Shown here piece by piece: positions 882 through 8,423 of a stretch of DNA of 10,290 nucleotides. The position numbers and the translations under genes are program-made. Numbering within the stretch: position 1 is the stretch's first letter; every line of letters begins with the position of its first letter. Origin of the DNA: an uncultured Thermoplasmata archaeon (lineage in GTDB: Archaea; Thermoplasmatota; Thermoplasmata; Methanomassiliicoccales; Methanomethylophilaceae). Below the pieces are notes generated by a model. It was given only the letters and a program-made list of their open reading frames with translations. It was not told the DNA's origin and ran no database searches. The stretch is from contig CAMNNR010000034.1 of the NCBI GenBank assembly GCA_946545675.1, positions 1 to 10,290 of the forward strand. The letters are read 5' to 3'.

Positions 882-945
882 TATATAATACTTATTGTTT
901 AATTCAATATTTTTAATGAAAAACACAATAAAAAAATTGATGAAA
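882..945 (-). promoter_or_regulatory. Promoter of the MarR-type gene, matching the mttB promoter
   Basis: On the minus strand, TGAATTAAACAATAA (906-892) precedes a TATA element (TATTATATA, 890-882), which fits an archaeal BRE/TATA pair. Transcription would start near 860, giving a leader of about 115 bases. A TTTCATCAA element (945-937) lies 30 bases further upstream. The same three blocks with the same spacing stand before mttB (5176-5239). Promoter function is inferred from position and composition. Confidence 0.6.
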
Positions 946-2945: not shown

Positions 2946-3596
2946 TCAGCCTTTGACGGCAGCAGCCATCTTGGGTGCGATCTCGGAGGAGTTCTCGGTG
3001 TAGACGTCTGCTCCGATCTCGTCGGCCCACTGCTGGGTGACGGGTGCTCCACCGACGTTGGTGAGGCACTTGCCCTTCAGTCCGGCCTTGACCATCATTT
3101 CCTCGAGGGTCTTCTGGTTGACCATGGTGGAGGTCATGAGTGCGGAGGTTCCGACTGCGACTGCACCGCTGTCCTGGCAAGCCTTGACGATGTCGCCGAG
3201 CTTGACGTCACGGCCGATGTTGAGAACATCGAATCCGCCGACTTTCAGCATGATAGCGCAGATGTCCTTTCCGATGGAGTGAATGTCTCCCTCGATGGTG
3301 CAGATGACGAACTTTCCAAGGGTGCTGGTGGAGTTTCCTCCGAGGTGGGGGGTGATGATCTCCATTCCGGCGTTGAGGGCGTTGGCTGCAGCCATGATGT
3401 GGGGAAGGAAGACCTTCTTCTGTGCGAAGAGGTCTCCGACGACGTTGATACCGGCGGTGTATCCGTTGTTGATCAGGTCGACGAGGTCGATTCCCTGGGT
3501 TGCAACTGCTTCCTCTGCGAGGGCCTTTGCTCCCTTGATGTCGTATTTGATTACTGCGTTCTTTGCTTTCTCATTGAGTTCCTGCTGGGTAGCCAT
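2946..3596 (-). CDS. mttC: Trimethylamine corrinoid protein MttC
   Basis: A 216-residue cytoplasmic protein that carries the corrinoid methylated by MttB and hands the methyl group to a CoM methyltransferase. It has the two-domain form of methanogen corrinoid proteins. A helical cap comes first (about 1-90). The Rossmann-like B12-binding domain (about 93-216) carries the base-off/His-on motif EGDIHSIGKD (D104, H106, G109), then S151-x-L153 (GTSALM) and the GG loop (182-183, VGGAPVT). Length is normal for the family. It starts five bases after the mttB stop codon. A GTG at 3605 is in frame, but the ATG at 3596, with GTGAT four bases before it, is preferred. Related dimethylamine and monomethylamine corrinoid proteins look alike; pairing with MttB decides the name. 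Confidence 0.92.
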   Translation of the reverse strand: MATQQELNEKAKNAVIKYDIKGAKALAEEAVATQGIDLVDLINNGYTAGINVVGDLFAQKKVFLPHIMAAANALNAGMEIITPHLGGNSTSTLGKFVICTIEGDIHSIGKDICAIMLKVGGFDVLNIGRDVKLGDIVKACQDSGAVAVGTSALMTSTMVNQKTLEEMMVKAGLKGKCLTNVGGAPVTQQWADEIGADVYTENSSEIAPKMAAAVKG

Positions 3597-3601
3597 TTGA
3601 A

Positions 3602-5113
3602 TCACTGCTCCTGTTTCTTGACCCTGTCGAAGTAAGCCTGGTCAGCCTGCTTGCAAATTTCGTCCCACTTGGCCTTTACATCGGCGTCGAGGGGCTTAAC
3701 TTCACGGTTTGCGAGGATGTCGACAACGACTTCGTGTGCGACATCAACGACGTCTTTCTTTCCTGCGGCTCTCCACTCACCGAGCATTGCACGGTCGAAG
3801 AGCTTGGGGTCAGATGCGATTTCCATGTTTTCCATGGTAGAGGGGTGGGAGATGAAGTCGTTTCCGACTCCGATCATCTTGATAGCGTCGATTGCGAGGG
3901 TCTCCTCATTTACGGGGACTCCCTCCATGAGCCTCCTCTCCATCATGATGATGTCGTTGTCGATGAGCATCTGCTCGAGAGAGAAGGTCTGTCCGAGTTC
4001 AAGCATTCCGGATCCGTAGATCATGTTGACACCTGCGAGTGCTGCGCACATGGAGGTGATGGTCTTCTCGTGAGCAGCCTGCTCATCGGGGACCTTGGCG
4101 TCAGTCTACATACCTGCGGTGAAGACAGGGAGCTTGTAGTACTGTCCGAGTTTTGCAACGGAAGCGGAGATGAGTCCGAGCTCAGGGGATCCGACAGGTG
4201 CGGTTCCGCTCTTGAGGTCGAAGGTGGTGGTGGAAGATCCGTACATGATGGGTGCTCCGGGGTTGGCGAGCTGAGAGAGCACGATTCCGGAGAGGATCTC
4301 TGCGTTGTGGGTAACGAGGGTTCCGGCAAGGAAGACGGAGGAGGATCCACCGGCCATTGCCATGGAGAGGACGTTCACGGGGATTCCGTACCTGGCTCCC
4401 TGGATGATGCACTGGCATGCGTTGTAGGAGAGCTCGAGGGGGGAGGTGGGGCAGACAAGCATAGACATGATGGGTTTTGCCCTGGCCTCTGCTTCGTCAC
4501 CGTGGTAGTACGCCTTGATCATTTCCCAGTAGAACTTCACGTTGTCGGCAACAGGGTCGATGTGGTGGAAGTGCATGGTGGTGTTCATCATAGAGGTGTA
4601 CATCTCGTGGACATCTTCGGATCCGTTTCCTGCCCAGTTCCTTGCGGAGACGGGGAGGGAGAAGAAGGAAAGTCCGTCGCATGCGTCGCAGATCCTTGCA
4701 ACGTTGGCGAGGTCCTGCTCGTTGGAGTCACGGGTCTCGAACTGTCCGTGTCCAAGGTAGTCACAAACCTGAATTCCGGTACCGAAGCAGGTGTAGTTGA
4801 CTTTTCCTTTCCATTCCATGGGGAAGGTCCTGCTCTCGTCACGTCCGTAGAGGTAGTATTTCTTGGGGCAGGTTGCGAGTGCCTTGTCAAGAATGTGGGA
4901 GGGGATCTTTACCATAAGGGTCTCTTCGTCGACGGGGCATCCGGCGTCCCTGAAGATCTGCCTTGCCTCAACATCGGAAACCTGAACTCCGTAGGTCTCG
5001 AGAACATCGCGGGTCGCCATGTCGAGTTTGCGGATTTCATCATCGCTGTAGAGTTCGAAGGTGATACCGTTGTGAGTCATGTTGTGTGGCTCGATAGGTG
5101 TGGTTTGTGCCAT
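3602..5113 (-). CDS. mttB: Trimethylamine methyltransferase MttB, with pyrrolysine
   Basis: It transfers a methyl group from trimethylamine to the Co(I) corrinoid of MttC, the first step of methanogenesis from trimethylamine. The 503-residue product is read through one in-frame TAG (4108-4106), pyrrolysine 336 in the setting [18 protein letters not shown]. This matches my memory of the Methanosarcina protein (Pyl at 334, about 495 residues), as do [71 protein letters not shown] and, after Pyl, [12 protein letters not shown] and [10 protein letters not shown]. Pyl is thought to bind and activate the methylamine. Without suppression the product would end after 335 residues; conserved sequence on both sides excludes a pseudogene. 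The ATG at 5113 is preferred to that at 5119 because GGAG lies 9 bases before it but only 3 before the other. It is the first gene of the operon. Confidence 0.95.
4071..4085 (-). promoter_or_regulatory. Stem-loop just downstream of the pyrrolysine codon
   Basis: In the mttB message, TGAGCA GGC TGCTCA forms a perfect 6-base stem with a 3-base loop, beginning 20 bases after the UAG. Structures placed after UAG have been proposed to help pyrrolysine insertion in some methylamine methyltransferase genes (PYLIS, mainly mtmB), although their necessity is disputed. The residues encoded here (DEQAAH) lie in a conserved part of the protein, so the stem may be chance. Confidence 0.3.
4106..4108 (-). 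other. In-frame amber codon read as pyrrolysine
   Basis: The plus-strand CTA is TAG in the mttB frame. It falls at the position where pyrrolysine lies in known MttB proteins, and the reading frame continues with conserved MttB sequence for 167 more residues. Decoding needs tRNA-Pyl (pylT), PylS and the PylBCD enzymes, none of which lie in this window. Confidence 0.95.
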
Positions 5114-5130
5114 TTTCATTCACTCCGTTT

Positions 5131-5160: not shown

Positions 5161-5175
5161 AAATCCATCCATCCA

Positions 5176-5239
5176 TATATATAGTTTATTGTTTAACTCA
5201 TTAAAAATGATGTTTAAAACATTCATTTTTTTGATGAAA
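5176..5239 (-). promoter_or_regulatory. Promoter of the mttB-mttC-permease operon
   Basis: On the minus strand, TGAGTTAAACAATAA (5200-5186) precedes a TATA element (CTATATATAT, 5184-5175). Transcription would start near 5150-5155, giving a leader of about 40 bases. TTTCATCAA (5239-5231) lies 30 bases upstream of the first block. The arrangement equals that of the MarR-type gene promoter (882-945), with about 42 of 64 positions identical without gaps by hand count. Inverted repeats lie directly upstream. Confidence 0.65.
5203..5230. repeat. Inverted repeat upstream of the mttB TATA element
   Basis: AAAAATG (5203-5209) and CATTTTT (5224-5230) are outer arms. ATGTTT (5210-5215, read with A5210) and AAACAT (5217-5222) are inner arms centred on A5216, with one unpaired base on the right. 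The dyad begins three bases upstream of the block beside the mttB TATA element, a place typical for an activator site in archaea. The A/T-rich composition weakens the claim. Confidence 0.4.
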
Positions 5240-5251
5240 ACAAGTAATTTT

Positions 5252-5266
5252 AATGATTCCATCATT
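5252..5266. repeat. Inverted repeat AATGAT/ATCATT upstream of mttB
   Basis: Perfect 6-base arms (5252-5257 and 5261-5266) surround TCC. Flanking AACAA (5239-5243) and TTGTT (5272-5276) extend the symmetry. The words resemble the TGATGA-type words of the inverted repeat at 936-964, so the two may be sites for the same protein. The site lies between the mttB and chelatase promoters and could serve either. Confidence 0.35.
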
Positions 5267-5378
5267 TTATTTTGTTGATACAAACATTTATTTTATTGAT
5301 AAGGTATGTTAAATTTAGTTCAGTAAACCTTAAAAATCGTTAAAAACGGTGAAAAAGGCACTGAAATGGACTGATTTA

Positions 5379-5472: not shown

Positions 5473-6504
5473 ATGACTGTTGAAAAATGCGTATTTCCCT
5501 TCTCCCGCGTCGTCGGACAGAAAGAGATGAAACTAGCACTGCTTCTGAACGCAGTGGACCCCTCCATCGGCGGTGTCCTCATCAAAGGAAGCAAAGGAAC
5601 CGCGAAATCCACTACTGTGAGATCAATGTCCCAATTCCTCCCCACCCGTCCTGCGGTAAAGGGATGCGTATTCAGGTGCGATCCCACCCAGACACGTAAG
5701 ATGTGTCCCGAGTGCAGGGCAAGATTCGAGAAGGGAGAGAAACTCGAGACCGTGCAGGTCCCTGTCGAAGTAGTAGAACTCCCTCTGAACGCAACCGAGG
5801 ACCGTGTCGCGGGAACCCTCGATCTCGAGCACGTCCTCGAGACCGGTAAGAGGAAGTTCGAACCCGGAATCCTCGCAGCCGCTAATGGTAATATATTATA
5901 TGTAGATGAAATCAACCTACTCGACGACCACATCGTCGACCTTCTACTCGACTCTGCCGCTATGGGTAGGAACTACGTGGAGAGGGAGGGAATCTCATTC
6001 TCCCACCCTGCCAACTTCATCCTCGTCGGAACCATGAACCCCGAAGAGGGAGACCTCAGACCCCAGCTGCTCGACAGGTTCGGTCTTTCTGTAGAAGTAA
6101 AGGAAGAATACAGCCTCGACTCCAGGATGGAGGTCATCAAACGGCGTATGGCATTCGACGCAGACCCTGACGGATATCTCGCGGGCTGCAAGGACGAACT
6201 CGCAGAGCTGAACAAGCAGGTCACCGAGGCCAAGAAACGCCTCGACAAGGTCGTCATCACCGACGACATCATCCGCAAGGCGGCAAAACTCTCTGGACAC
6301 TTCAAGATGGAAGGTCACAGGGCAGATCTGGCACTCATGAGGGCCGCAAGAGCCAACGCAGCACTCGAGGGTAGGACCGAAATCACCAGAGAGGACTTCC
6401 TCAAGATTGCTCCCCTGGTCCTGTCACACCGTATCAAGAAGAAGGCCTTCGAAAAGACCGTCCTCAACGTCGCCGAGGTAAAAGAGTGCCTGTACAAGAT
6501 GTGA
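5473..6504 (+). CDS. bchI: BchI/ChlI-type AAA+ chelatase ATPase subunit
   Basis: A 343-residue cytoplasmic AAA+ ATPase, the I subunit of a Mg/Co-chelatase-type complex, near the usual family length. Visible in order: FPFSRVVGQ (8-16); Walker A GSKGTAKST (39-47); C65, C69, C78 and C81 (last two in CPEC) in the loop after it; the insert PLNATEDRVAGTLDL (104-118); Walker B ILYVDEIN (141-148); sensor 1 LVGTMNPEEG (184-193) with the RPQLLDRFG segment (197-205); and a C-terminal helical lid with RADLALMRAARANAAL. With the BchD-like partner it would drive metal insertion by a large CobN- or BchH-type subunit, absent here. A methanogen makes no chlorophyll, so cobalt insertion for corrinoids is the likely role, which suits the neighbouring MttB/MttC genes. 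The start has only a weak ribosome binding site (GGCTTGAT). It overlaps the next gene by one base. Confidence 0.9.
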   Translation: MTVEKCVFPFSRVVGQKEMKLALLLNAVDPSIGGVLIKGSKGTAKSTTVRSMSQFLPTRPAVKGCVFRCDPTQTRKMCPECRARFEKGEKLETVQVPVEVVELPLNATEDRVAGTLDLEHVLETGKRKFEPGILAAANGNILYVDEINLLDDHIVDLLLDSAAMGRNYVEREGISFSHPANFILVGTMNPEEGDLRPQLLDRFGLSVEVKEEYSLDSRMEVIKRRMAFDADPDGYLAGCKDELAELNKQVTEAKKRLDKVVITDDIIRKAAKLSGHFKMEGHRADLALMRAARANAALEGRTEITREDFLKIAPLVLSHRIKKKAFEKTVLNVAEVKECLYKM

Positions 6505-8423
6505 TGCCGTTCTCTGCGGTGGCCGGCAACGAATCCGCCAAAACAGCGGTCAAGTGCCTTCTGGCCAATCCCAATCTGAACTGTATGCTCATCACAGGCC
6601 CCGCAGGAACTGGCAAAACTTTACTGACAAGATCTATCGGTTCGCTCGACAAGAGCATACCCGTGGTCAGCGCACCGATAGGCATATCCGACGACCGCCT
6701 GTTCGGTTCCATCGACATAGAGAAGGCTGTCACCACCGGCGACATGGAGATCCAGCCCGGACTGTTCGCCGAAGCCAAGAACGGTGTCATCTGCATCGAT
6801 GAAATAGAACTCATGGATCTGCGTCTGGCACTTCAGTGTGTGGAATGCGCAGTGAAGAAACAGGTCAACCTCGAAAGGGAGGGCTTATCCGCCAAATACC
6901 CCACGAATGCCCGCATCATCGCGACCACATCCTCCCCGATGTTCAAGATCAACGGCCACCTCAAGGACCGTTTCGATATCTCCGTCAGGCTGAGCAGGCC
7001 TGAGTTCGAGGACTATGTCGCATCCCTCCGCAACAACCTCGAATTCAGCGAGGGTGAACTCGACCTCAAACAGTTCAGGAGCAAGGACCGCGAGGTGTTA
7101 AAGCAGATCAAAGCCGCCAGGAAGGCTCTCCCCACCATCCGCGTACTCAAGAAGCACAAGGATGCCATCTCCCGCATCTGCAGGAAGTATGGGGTCATCG
7201 GACAGAGGGGGCCCGTTGCCGCTGCTGAGGTAGCGGCCACCCTTGCCGCCCTCGATGGCAGGAAGAAGACCAGCCAGGAGGATGTCATCCTCGCTGTCGA
7301 ACTCTGCCTGACCCACCGCCGTACCAAGTTCGAGCCCAAGAAGAAGAAAGGCGAGGAGGAACTCCCCAGAGGATTCGGATACGCCGGGTCCAAGAGGTTC
7401 ATCCACGACGACCGCAGGAAACGTATCGAAGCCACTCTCGTGGAAAAGATCAATGAAAAGGTCAATCTGGATAACATCGAGGAAGTGCAGGAAAGGCCCA
7501 TCAACGAACCCCAGGAGATAGAAACCAAGGTGGGCGAAAAGTTCGAGACCATCGACATCATGGAGTCCGCTGACGCCAACGGTGCCTTCGCCGAGACCAA
7601 GGCGAAGAAGTACATCGAATCCCCGATGGGACGTTACACCGCCTTCCGCATCCCCATGGGTCAGTGCACCGACCTCGCCATCGATGCCACCATCAGAGCC
7701 GCCGCCCCCTATCAGAGGGTCAGAGGCAAGAAGGCCGGAGAAGGCATGAAGATCGAAAAGAACGATCTCAGGGAGAAGATACGCACCAAGCACACTGAGC
7801 AGACCTTCATATTCATGATGGATACCAGCGGTTCCCTGATCATCAGGAACCGTATGGCCAAGGTGAAGGCGGCCATCATCTCAATGCTGGAGACCCACTA
7901 CCTCAAGAGGGACAGGGTCGGACTCTATACCTTCAACGACGAGAAGACCGAAATCCTGATGCCCCCCACACGTGCCATCGATGAGCTGTCATCCACCATC
8001 GACGGGATCGTGGTAGGTTGCGGTACCCCTCTGAGTAAGGCACTTATCGGTGTCTGGGACTTCATCAAGGGGTACCAGAAGAAGCACCCCGAGGAGATCG
8101 TCCACATCATCCTCTTCTCGGACGGAAAGGCCACCACTCCCCTCGAGGAAGGCAACGACCCCGTCGAGGAAGCACTGGAAATCGCGGAGCACCTGGAGAA
8201 ACCCAATGTGGATTGGACGGTGATCGACTCCGGACTCGGATCCTCGAAATCCGATATCCCTGTGAAACTGGCACAGAAGCTCAAGGGAAGGTTCTTCCTG
8301 TTGGATGACCTGCAGTCCAAGGACACTGTCTCCTCCATGTGGGGCGACAGCAAACCCAAGACCCAGGTACAGCCCTATATGCCGACGGCATACGACATCC
8401 TCGAGAAGAGGGGTCTGAGGTAA
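6504..8423 (+). CDS. bchD: BchD/ChlD-type chelatase subunit with AAA+ and vWA domains
   Basis: A 639-residue D subunit of the chelatase ATPase complex. An N-terminal AAA+ domain (about 1-270) has an intact Walker A GPAGTGKT (32-39), Walker B VICIDEIE (95-102) and NGHLKDRFDI (150-159). A charged, Pro/Glu-rich linker follows (about 274-375, KKKKGEEELP, EEVQERPINEPQEIE). Next is IRAAAPYQ (397-404), a BchD/CobT family signature. The C-terminal von Willebrand A domain (about 433-620) has a full metal-binding MIDAS: DTSGS (440-444), T508 in GCGTPL and D540 in FSDG. The D subunit scaffolds the I-subunit ring and contacts the large subunit, here probably CobN elsewhere. The ATG at 6504 overlaps the bchI stop codon (TGATG), implying coupled translation; an in-frame GTG at 6486 is less likely because MPFSAVAGNE is how the family begins. 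Confidence 0.88.
   Translation: MPFSAVAGNESAKTAVKCLLANPNLNCMLITGPAGTGKTLLTRSIGSLDKSIPVVSAPIGISDDRLFGSIDIEKAVTTGDMEIQPGLFAEAKNGVICIDEIELMDLRLALQCVECAVKKQVNLEREGLSAKYPTNARIIATTSSPMFKINGHLKDRFDISVRLSRPEFEDYVASLRNNLEFSEGELDLKQFRSKDREVLKQIKAARKALPTIRVLKKHKDAISRICRKYGVIGQRGPVAAAEVAATLAALDGRKKTSQEDVILAVELCLTHRRTKFEPKKKKGEEELPRGFGYAGSKRFIHDDRRKRIEATLVEKINEKVNLDNIEEVQERPINEPQEIETKVGEKFETIDIMESADANGAFAETKAKKYIESPMGRYTAFRIPMGQCTDLAIDATIRAAAPYQRVRGKKAGEGMKIEKNDLREKIRTKHTEQTFIFMMDTSGSLIIRNRMAKVKAAIISMLETHYLKRDRVGLYTFNDEKTEILMPPTRAIDELSSTIDGIVVGCGTPLSKALIGVWDFIKGYQKKHPEEIVHIILFSDGKATTPLEEGNDPVEEALEIAEHLEKPNVDWTVIDSGLGSSKSDIPVKLAQKLKGRFFLLDDLQSKDTVSSMWGDSKPKTQVQPYMPTAYDILEKRGLR

Follow-up and report, generated by a model that had tools for sequence, protein, structure and literature searches.

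Helix-phased inverted repeats at the mttB and marR promoters of a Methanomethylophilaceae archaeon, a probable operator array of a lineage-specific MarR-type regulator

Gut Methanomassiliicoccales use trimethylamine, the TMAO precursor, as a substrate for methanogenesis. How is this use of trimethylamine switched on and off, and why does the promoter of a trimethylamine methyltransferase gene in one of these archaea resemble that of a nearby regulator gene? The locus that raises the question is a stretch of 10,290 nucleotides (hereafter the window), contig C34 of an uncultured archaeon whose metagenome-assembled genome comprises 1.17 Mb in 153 contigs and is 70.6% complete. Its minus strand carries, in this order, mttB, mttC, an mttP-like permease gene and a MarR-type gene. 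The mttB gene (3602–5119) encodes trimethylamine methyltransferase with an in-frame amber (pyrrolysine) codon, scores 689 bits with TIGR02369, above the cut-off, and contains a PYLIS_3 element at 4009–4108, the sole Rfam match on the window. The cognate corrinoid protein is encoded by mttC (2946–3605; TIGR02370, 202.9 bits, just below the cut-off of 215.3). Between mttC and marR lies the permease gene (1313–2794), an AA_permease_2 member of the amino-acid/TMAO permease family that reaches 164 of 690 bits with the NCBIfam TMAO permease model, below its cut-off. The MarR-type gene, whose product is the proposed binder discussed below, occupies 120–743. Divergent from mttB, the plus strand carries a chlI/chlD-like chelatase pair, HMG-CoA reductase and pheT; the chlI-like ATPase gene (5473–6504) matches TIGR02442 and TIGR02030 below their cut-offs.

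The original prediction described a gapless likeness between positions 882–945, before the MarR-type gene, and 5176–5239, before mttB, and this likeness holds. The two stretches are identical at 42 of 64 bases, among them TATATA (6/6), a 15-base block, TTATTGTTTAAYTCA, in which Y marks the sole difference between the marR and mttB promoters, and TTGATGAAA, which matches at 9 of 9 positions and stands at the same distance from the block in both. Between the two 100-bp promoter stretches 42 is the best 64-base gapless match, and it was reached by none of 1,000 dinucleotide-preserving shuffles (mean 33.1, maximum 41); nor was it reached in 400 shuffles of the wider intergenic regions of 470 and 340 bp (mean 34.3, maximum 38). 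The 15-base block by itself is not beyond chance, a 14-of-15 match having arisen in 30 of the 400 shuffles of the wider regions. Across the genome of the window the exact block occurs only at the mttB and marR promoters, and two more places match it with 2 mismatches, neither having a TATA box beside it when inspected by eye. A scan for the block together with a TATA box, allowing up to 3 mismatches, found 30 places against 20 for the reversed control, and only the best two, which are the mttB and marR promoters, stand out. The literal block was accordingly discarded as a signature.

What the two promoters have in common is a row of 13-bp inverted repeats (WTGW-N5-WCAW, consensus TTGA-N5-TCAA), aligned along a single face of the helix up to the TATA box. 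The motif has 11 exact matches in the window where 3.2 are expected, and none of 200 shuffles reached 11. Five exact copies make up the mttB promoter, starting at 5189, 5210, 5231, 5253 and 5275, that is, in steps of 21, 21, 22 and 22 bp. Site 1, TTGTTTAACTCAT (5189–5201), lies inside the 15-base block, next to the BRE and the predicted TATA box TATATATA (5176–5183, minus strand); site 2, ATGTTTAAAACAT (5210–5222), is a perfect palindrome; site 3, TTGATGAAAACAA (5231–5243), contains TTGATGAAA; sites 4, ATGATTCCATCAT (5253–5265), and 5, TTGATACAAACAT (5275–5287), follow, and the whole row stands between mttB and the divergent chlI-like gene. The marR promoter repeats this layout in steps of 21 bp: beside the BRE and a predicted TATA box TTATATA (882–888, minus strand) are exact sites 1, TTGTTTAATTCAA (895–907, again inside the block), and 2, ATGAAAAACACAA (916–928), then site 3, TTGATGAAATGAT (937–949), which has one mismatch to the motif and contains TTGATGAAA. 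A further exact copy, ATGATTTTTTCAT (948–960), falls outside the 21-bp register. In gene direction, on the minus strand, each row runs towards site 1, and the adjacent TATA box is reached last.

The blocks first noticed are therefore sites 1 and 3. Site 1 falls within the 15-base block, site 3 has TTGATGAAA as its left part, and two 21-bp steps account for the constant N30 spacing. Site 2 (916–928 and 5210–5222), absent from the original prediction, lies between them in the same register. Thus the three-part form of TATA box, block and TTGATGAAA at N30 does not stand as a unit; it is the TATA box plus two members of a phased inverted-repeat array. When a chain was defined as sites stepped by 20.5–22.5 bp, a five-site chain was found in 0 of 5,000 shuffles of the mttB–chlI intergenic region, the longest shuffled chain being 2. 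For the marR region, 4 of 5,000 shuffles produced a strict chain of 2 and none its four sites; taken alone, the marR array is modest.

Related genomes keep the site as well as its phasing. A TTGA-N4/5-TCAA-like site lies beside the TATA box at the mttB promoters of G018, G014, G022 and G023, which belong to the same genus, of G057, G058, G059 and G072 (genus g9), and of G001 (g2). Taking as anchor the proximal site, placed by eye, in 13 promoters including the two of the window, the match score peaks upstream at 21 bp (z 7.3), 42 bp (4.4) and 64 bp (3.4); the null maximum z has its 95% point at 3.28 and its largest value at 4.45, which the peak at 42 bp does not exceed. Both anchor subsets, five of genus g1 and seven others, peak at 21 bp (z 4.7 and 5.2). 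The columns at that distance, unselected for the motif, read T9 T11 G12 ... C11 A10 of 13, with a variable middle. Four sites in G058 keep the outer inverted repeat around unrelated inner bases (TATAG, CGCCG, ACTAT), and G018 has a 21-bp pair, with other core letters, before its separate marR. A literal signature of block, N30 and TTGATGAAA is not what these relatives keep.

Such details bear on the possibility that the marR promoter arose as a copy of the mttB promoter, through duplication or recombination, so that the likeness would reflect descent only. Copying would explain a gapless likeness of 64 bases in the same site register, but the promoters diverge outside the sites and the TATA box, the cores of the two sites 2 differ, and the pair of G018 has its own core letters. 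For the same reasons gene duplication was rejected as the full explanation. Descent alone is very unlikely; copying and shared regulation are not mutually exclusive, and even if the promoter was copied, the sites have been kept in phase.

How specific are these sites to methylamine genes? With the strict motif, 179 segments of cluster promoters (70,404 bp, mttP included) contained 177 sites, compared with 65.8 in shuffles. They included 20 pairs at 21±1 bp, for which shuffles gave a mean of 0.2 and a maximum of 1 in 60, and also 12 pairs at 42±1, 6 at 63±1 and 10 at 30±1 bp. Random intergenic DNA of G014 and G059 (165 segments, 62,134 bp) had 48 sites against 44.6 and no pair at 21 bp, while the untagged intergenic regions had 65 against 49.6 in shuffles and two such pairs. 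The window and 80 further stretches, 912,565 bp together, contain 14 chains scoring at least 14, of which 13 lie upstream of mttB, mttB-like, mtbC, mttP or marR genes; the remaining one (in L151) is not upstream of these gene classes. Among promoters of mttB, mttB-like, corrinoid or marR genes, 18 of 160 have a chain of at least 11.3. Such chains also occur in 5 of the 256 untagged intergenic regions on these stretches, in 1 of 165 random regions (G014, G059) and in none of the 28 regions directly before mtmB, mtbB or mtaB. The single random hit, in G059, scores 14.3 and depends on how the control was masked: a stricter version left 130 regions with none at 11.3 or above, and the less aggressive one, with 165 regions, was used. 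Genome-wide, the 21-bp pair pattern exceeds its reversed-pattern control in all 102 genomes, presumably mostly through coding sequence with 7-codon periodicity; since many of the places look like coding sequence, the pattern cannot serve as a regulon scan.

These counts also weigh on the alternative that nothing more than an ordinary AT-rich promoter is being seen, either a BRE/TATA consensus helped by chance or phased A/T tracts that bend the DNA. The block alone is indeed within chance, its end is BRE-like, and the window's spacers are A/T-rich. However, dinucleotide-preserving shuffles of the same regions lack the chains and random intergenic DNA lacks the 21-bp pair, and the G058 sites keep their outer inverted repeat while the inner bases change; both the BRE/TATA consensus alone and bending by A-tracts were rejected. 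An ordinary promoter is thus an extremely unlikely account.

Some features of these loci lie apart from the 21-bp rows. In L135, L166, L168 and L172, mttB-like clusters accompanied by a second MarR type carry TTGA-N4-TCAA pairs 29–30 bp apart, which surround the TATA box where the sequence was inspected. ATCCATCC occurs twice at 5163–5174, and the word GGATGGAT follows closely downstream of the TATA box of mttB. The intergenic parts of the methylamine cluster loci contain GGATGGAT 37 times versus 10.7 in shuffles (maximum 17); in random intergenic DNA it occurs 1 and 3 times versus about 2, which is no enrichment. It was therefore dismissed as a general promoter word and is a second, unexplained element at cluster loci. 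The spacers before marR (744–881, and the mttC–marR spacers of relatives) often contain TTTCCTCC-like runs and GC-rich inverted repeats; a search for a common RNA structure in the mttC–marR spacers of seven genomes found only 4 pairs, at -2.3 kcal/mol.

Which protein might occupy the array? Among the window proteins scanned, the MarR-type protein is the only one that looks like a regulator; there is no Lrp/AsnC gene among them and no Msr-type gene at the locus. Its AlphaFold model (mean pLDDT 77.6) shows the helix order and wing of MarR with long flanking dimer helices. The top Foldseek matches are MarR proteins, also the best in the PDB (3s2w, E 5e-7), and the profile match to 3s2w has an E-value of 2.8e-15. 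It narrowly misses the curated Pfam cut-offs (MarR_2, 26.8 bits against 27; MarR, 19.9 of 24.6), and all its NCBIfam matches are under theirs. For the assignment to the MarR family we consider that the evidence of the predicted fold outweighs these narrow misses. The recognition helix ANTNRVIK is nearly invariant among relatives, and this family-restricted protein also has an invariant N-terminal helix of the YWNSxLPxFxDR type. At a threshold of E 1e-20, a profile of these MarR proteins has matches in 49 of 147 genomes from the order: 48 belong to this family, and the single match outside it is interrupted by two stops. The sites have the right form for a pseudo-palindromic operator that such a protein would bind as a dimer.

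If this protein reads the sites, they should depend on its presence. Promoters were compared in 42 genomes with a strong match in the MarR homologue search (MarR+) and eight without one (MarR-), three of which (G008, G034, G047) have a distant MarR. The MarR+ promoters hold 167 sites in 57,008 bp (2.93/kb) and 20 phased pairs, in 13 of the 42 genomes; the MarR- promoters hold 10 sites in 13,396 bp (0.75/kb), which is background, and a phased pair in none of the eight. Permuting the labels over the 50 genomes gave p 0.0006, a statistic that ignores kinship although the genomes are related and the cases therefore not independent, and that concerns stretches picked around marR or mttB matches. 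The contrast persists when marR promoters are left out (2.72 versus 0.75 per kb), and the AT content is alike in the two groups (0.568 and 0.554).

The marR gene also keeps company with methylamine genes. Forty of the 51 MarR-type genes on the stretches examined, themselves a part of all the homologue matches found, lie within 3 kb of an mttB, mttB-like, mttC/corrinoid, mtbB, mtmB or mttP gene; the other 11 are farther away, some near contig ends. A separate named collection, which partly overlaps the same genomes and whose records bear Methanomassiliicoccales-type, Thermoplasmata or unspecific archaeon names, has a methyltransferase or corrinoid gene within 3 kb of the MarR-type gene at 27 of 37 loci. 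The order mttB–mttC–marR, in one direction, recurs in G014, G022, G023, G057, G058, G059 and G001, and marR is divergent from mtbC–mtbB–mttB–mttC in G067, G068 and G056. Within the window, the sites stand at the regulator's own promoter (marR) and at that of its proposed target (mttB). In G013, the match to mttC (L147:3412-4045) falls into three parts, as it would for a frameshifted or split gene. The chelatase genes recur as well: the chlI/chlD-like pair (5473–8423, with further loci L130, L132, L136, L152, L153, L154 and L159) is divergent from mttB in eight genomes of three genera, the window's included, the other cases being G014, G022, G023, G057, G058, G059 and G001. In G017 a phased array separates chlI from the divergent mtbC, and in G053 chlI lies beside marR without mttB. 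A link of the chelatase pair to corrinoid handling is possible.

Elsewhere in the window's own genome, contig C60 has an exact three-site array (21, 21) upstream of an EamA-type transporter gene (L209/L304, G000:C60:2903-4153). In relatives, 10 of 12 EamA homologues directly follow mttC or mtbB, which makes this gene a candidate methylamine transporter; no array was found upstream of the homologues in the relatives checked. The mtm promoter has a 21-bp pair with one degenerate member, and on C8 an operon of corrinoid and URO-D-type methyltransferase genes has a single full site at its promoter. An equally strong array, three exact sites at 21 bp, lies on C139 (L210/L317) between topA and an unknown gene, upstream of the frame 1785–2390; it has no counterpart in any of the seven relatives checked and is unexplained.

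The topA array would suit another account, in which the operators are real but are bound by a different or more global regulator, the MarR gene being a mere neighbour. The same could be said of the 9 of 42 MarR+ genomes that show no strict site in the promoters examined, and the MarR-type protein is itself a putative binder. On the other side, site density is at background in the eight MarR- genomes despite their retained mtt, mtb and mtm clusters, the arrays accompany marR where it stands detached, as in the window, or in divergent orientation (G039, G011), and the sites are inverted repeats, as used by MarR dimers. A different regulator is thus unlikely. The original prediction, that one set of regulator sites serves the MarR-type gene and the trimethylamine operon and defines a small regulon, is supported in this broader part, even though its three-part unit and literal signature had to be given up: density and 21-bp phasing at methylamine-cluster promoters are far above chance, genomes that lack a close MarR homologue have the sites at background or not at all, and the MarR gene shows linkage to methylamine genes.

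Our preferred reading, to which we give a probability of about 70%, is that the shared sequence is the operator array of a lineage-specific MarR-type regulator (MttR) that acts, probably as a repressor, on mttB, on its own gene and on further methylamine genes. Each inverted repeat of 12–13 bp (TTGA-N4/5-TCAA, core TTG-N7-CA) would be the site of one winged-helix dimer. With a site about every two turns (21–22 bp), dimers would sit on one face of the DNA, where they could bind cooperatively, and the last would abut the BRE and TATA box; in several relatives a further site 29–30 bp downstream would bracket the TATA box. Bound in this way, the regulator would keep TBP/TFB and the polymerase off the promoters of mttB–mttC, of its own gene and of further methylamine genes, and would release the DNA when a methylamine-related signal, its putative ligand, is present.

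The same sites and protein could also work in the opposite sense, the array beside the BRE recruiting TBP/TFB in the presence of methylamines. Ptr2 and similar archaeal activators act from a position next to the BRE, which is where site 1 ends, and neither of the window's two promoters has a site downstream of the TATA box. Against this, the pairs of relatives at 29–30 bp (10 pairs at 30±1) bracket the TATA box with the downstream member near the start site, an arrangement that occlusion fits better than activation. Activation is therefore doubtful, and repression is somewhat favoured over it. A bolder reading is tentative: the MarR-type protein, confined to Methanomassiliicoccales as far as searched, might polymerise along phased rows with up to five or more dimers per face, and might be a master switch of gut methylamine methanogenesis (mtt, mtb, mtm, the transporter and its own gene) acting in two geometries, 21-bp rows upstream of the TATA box and 30-bp pairs around it.

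MarR operators and phased Lrp sites are already known. Searches of the open literature turned up no MarR-linked row of sites before methylamine methyltransferase genes and, in the portions of it available, no described regulator or operator for Methanomassiliicoccales methyltransferase genes; the accessible parts of PMC5011839 and PMC10804542 yielded no mention of MarR or promoters, and in those of PMC6147122 and PMC10658910 the string "marr" matched author names only. The array would be a first handle on the switching of trimethylamine use in gut-type methanogens. With a 13-bp site, a strict 21-bp spacing and a single candidate protein, this regulation can be tested directly in vitro, and the site allows candidate methylamine genes, such as that of the EamA-type transporter, to be picked out.

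How does this compare with known systems? In Methanosarcina, Msr, MreA and MreB control methanol, methylamine or methylsulfide methyltransferase genes (PMC11619418). They differ from the window's system in belonging to other genes and another order, and the available text of PMC11619418 shows no link between them and a MarR gene or a TTGA-N5-TCAA array. Known MarR regulators, among them Methanosarcina mazei MarR (3s2w), S. aureus MepR with DNA (4lln) and Sulfolobus ST1710 with DNA (3gfi), have the same winged-helix fold, use short inverted-repeat promoter sites, and are encoded near their targets with sites at their own promoter. Unlike these, the present case combines rows of up to five sites stepped by 21–22 bp with a family-restricted protein, and the proposed targets are corrinoid methyltransferase genes. 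No MarR protein with a comparable row of sites is known to us, and a search of the open literature for a MarR with cooperative palindromic sites phased by helical turns gave no match. The phasing itself recalls the archaeal Lrp-type regulators, described in the part of PMC2995911 available as cooperative dimers on one helix face, with centres two or three turns apart. The sites of the array are likewise two or three turns apart (20 pairs at 21±1 and 10 at 30±1 bp), but the linked regulator has a predicted MarR fold, so that the array would work like that of Lrp with no Lrp member involved. If this is true, helix-phased rows of sites, described until now for archaeal Lrp proteins, would have a MarR counterpart.
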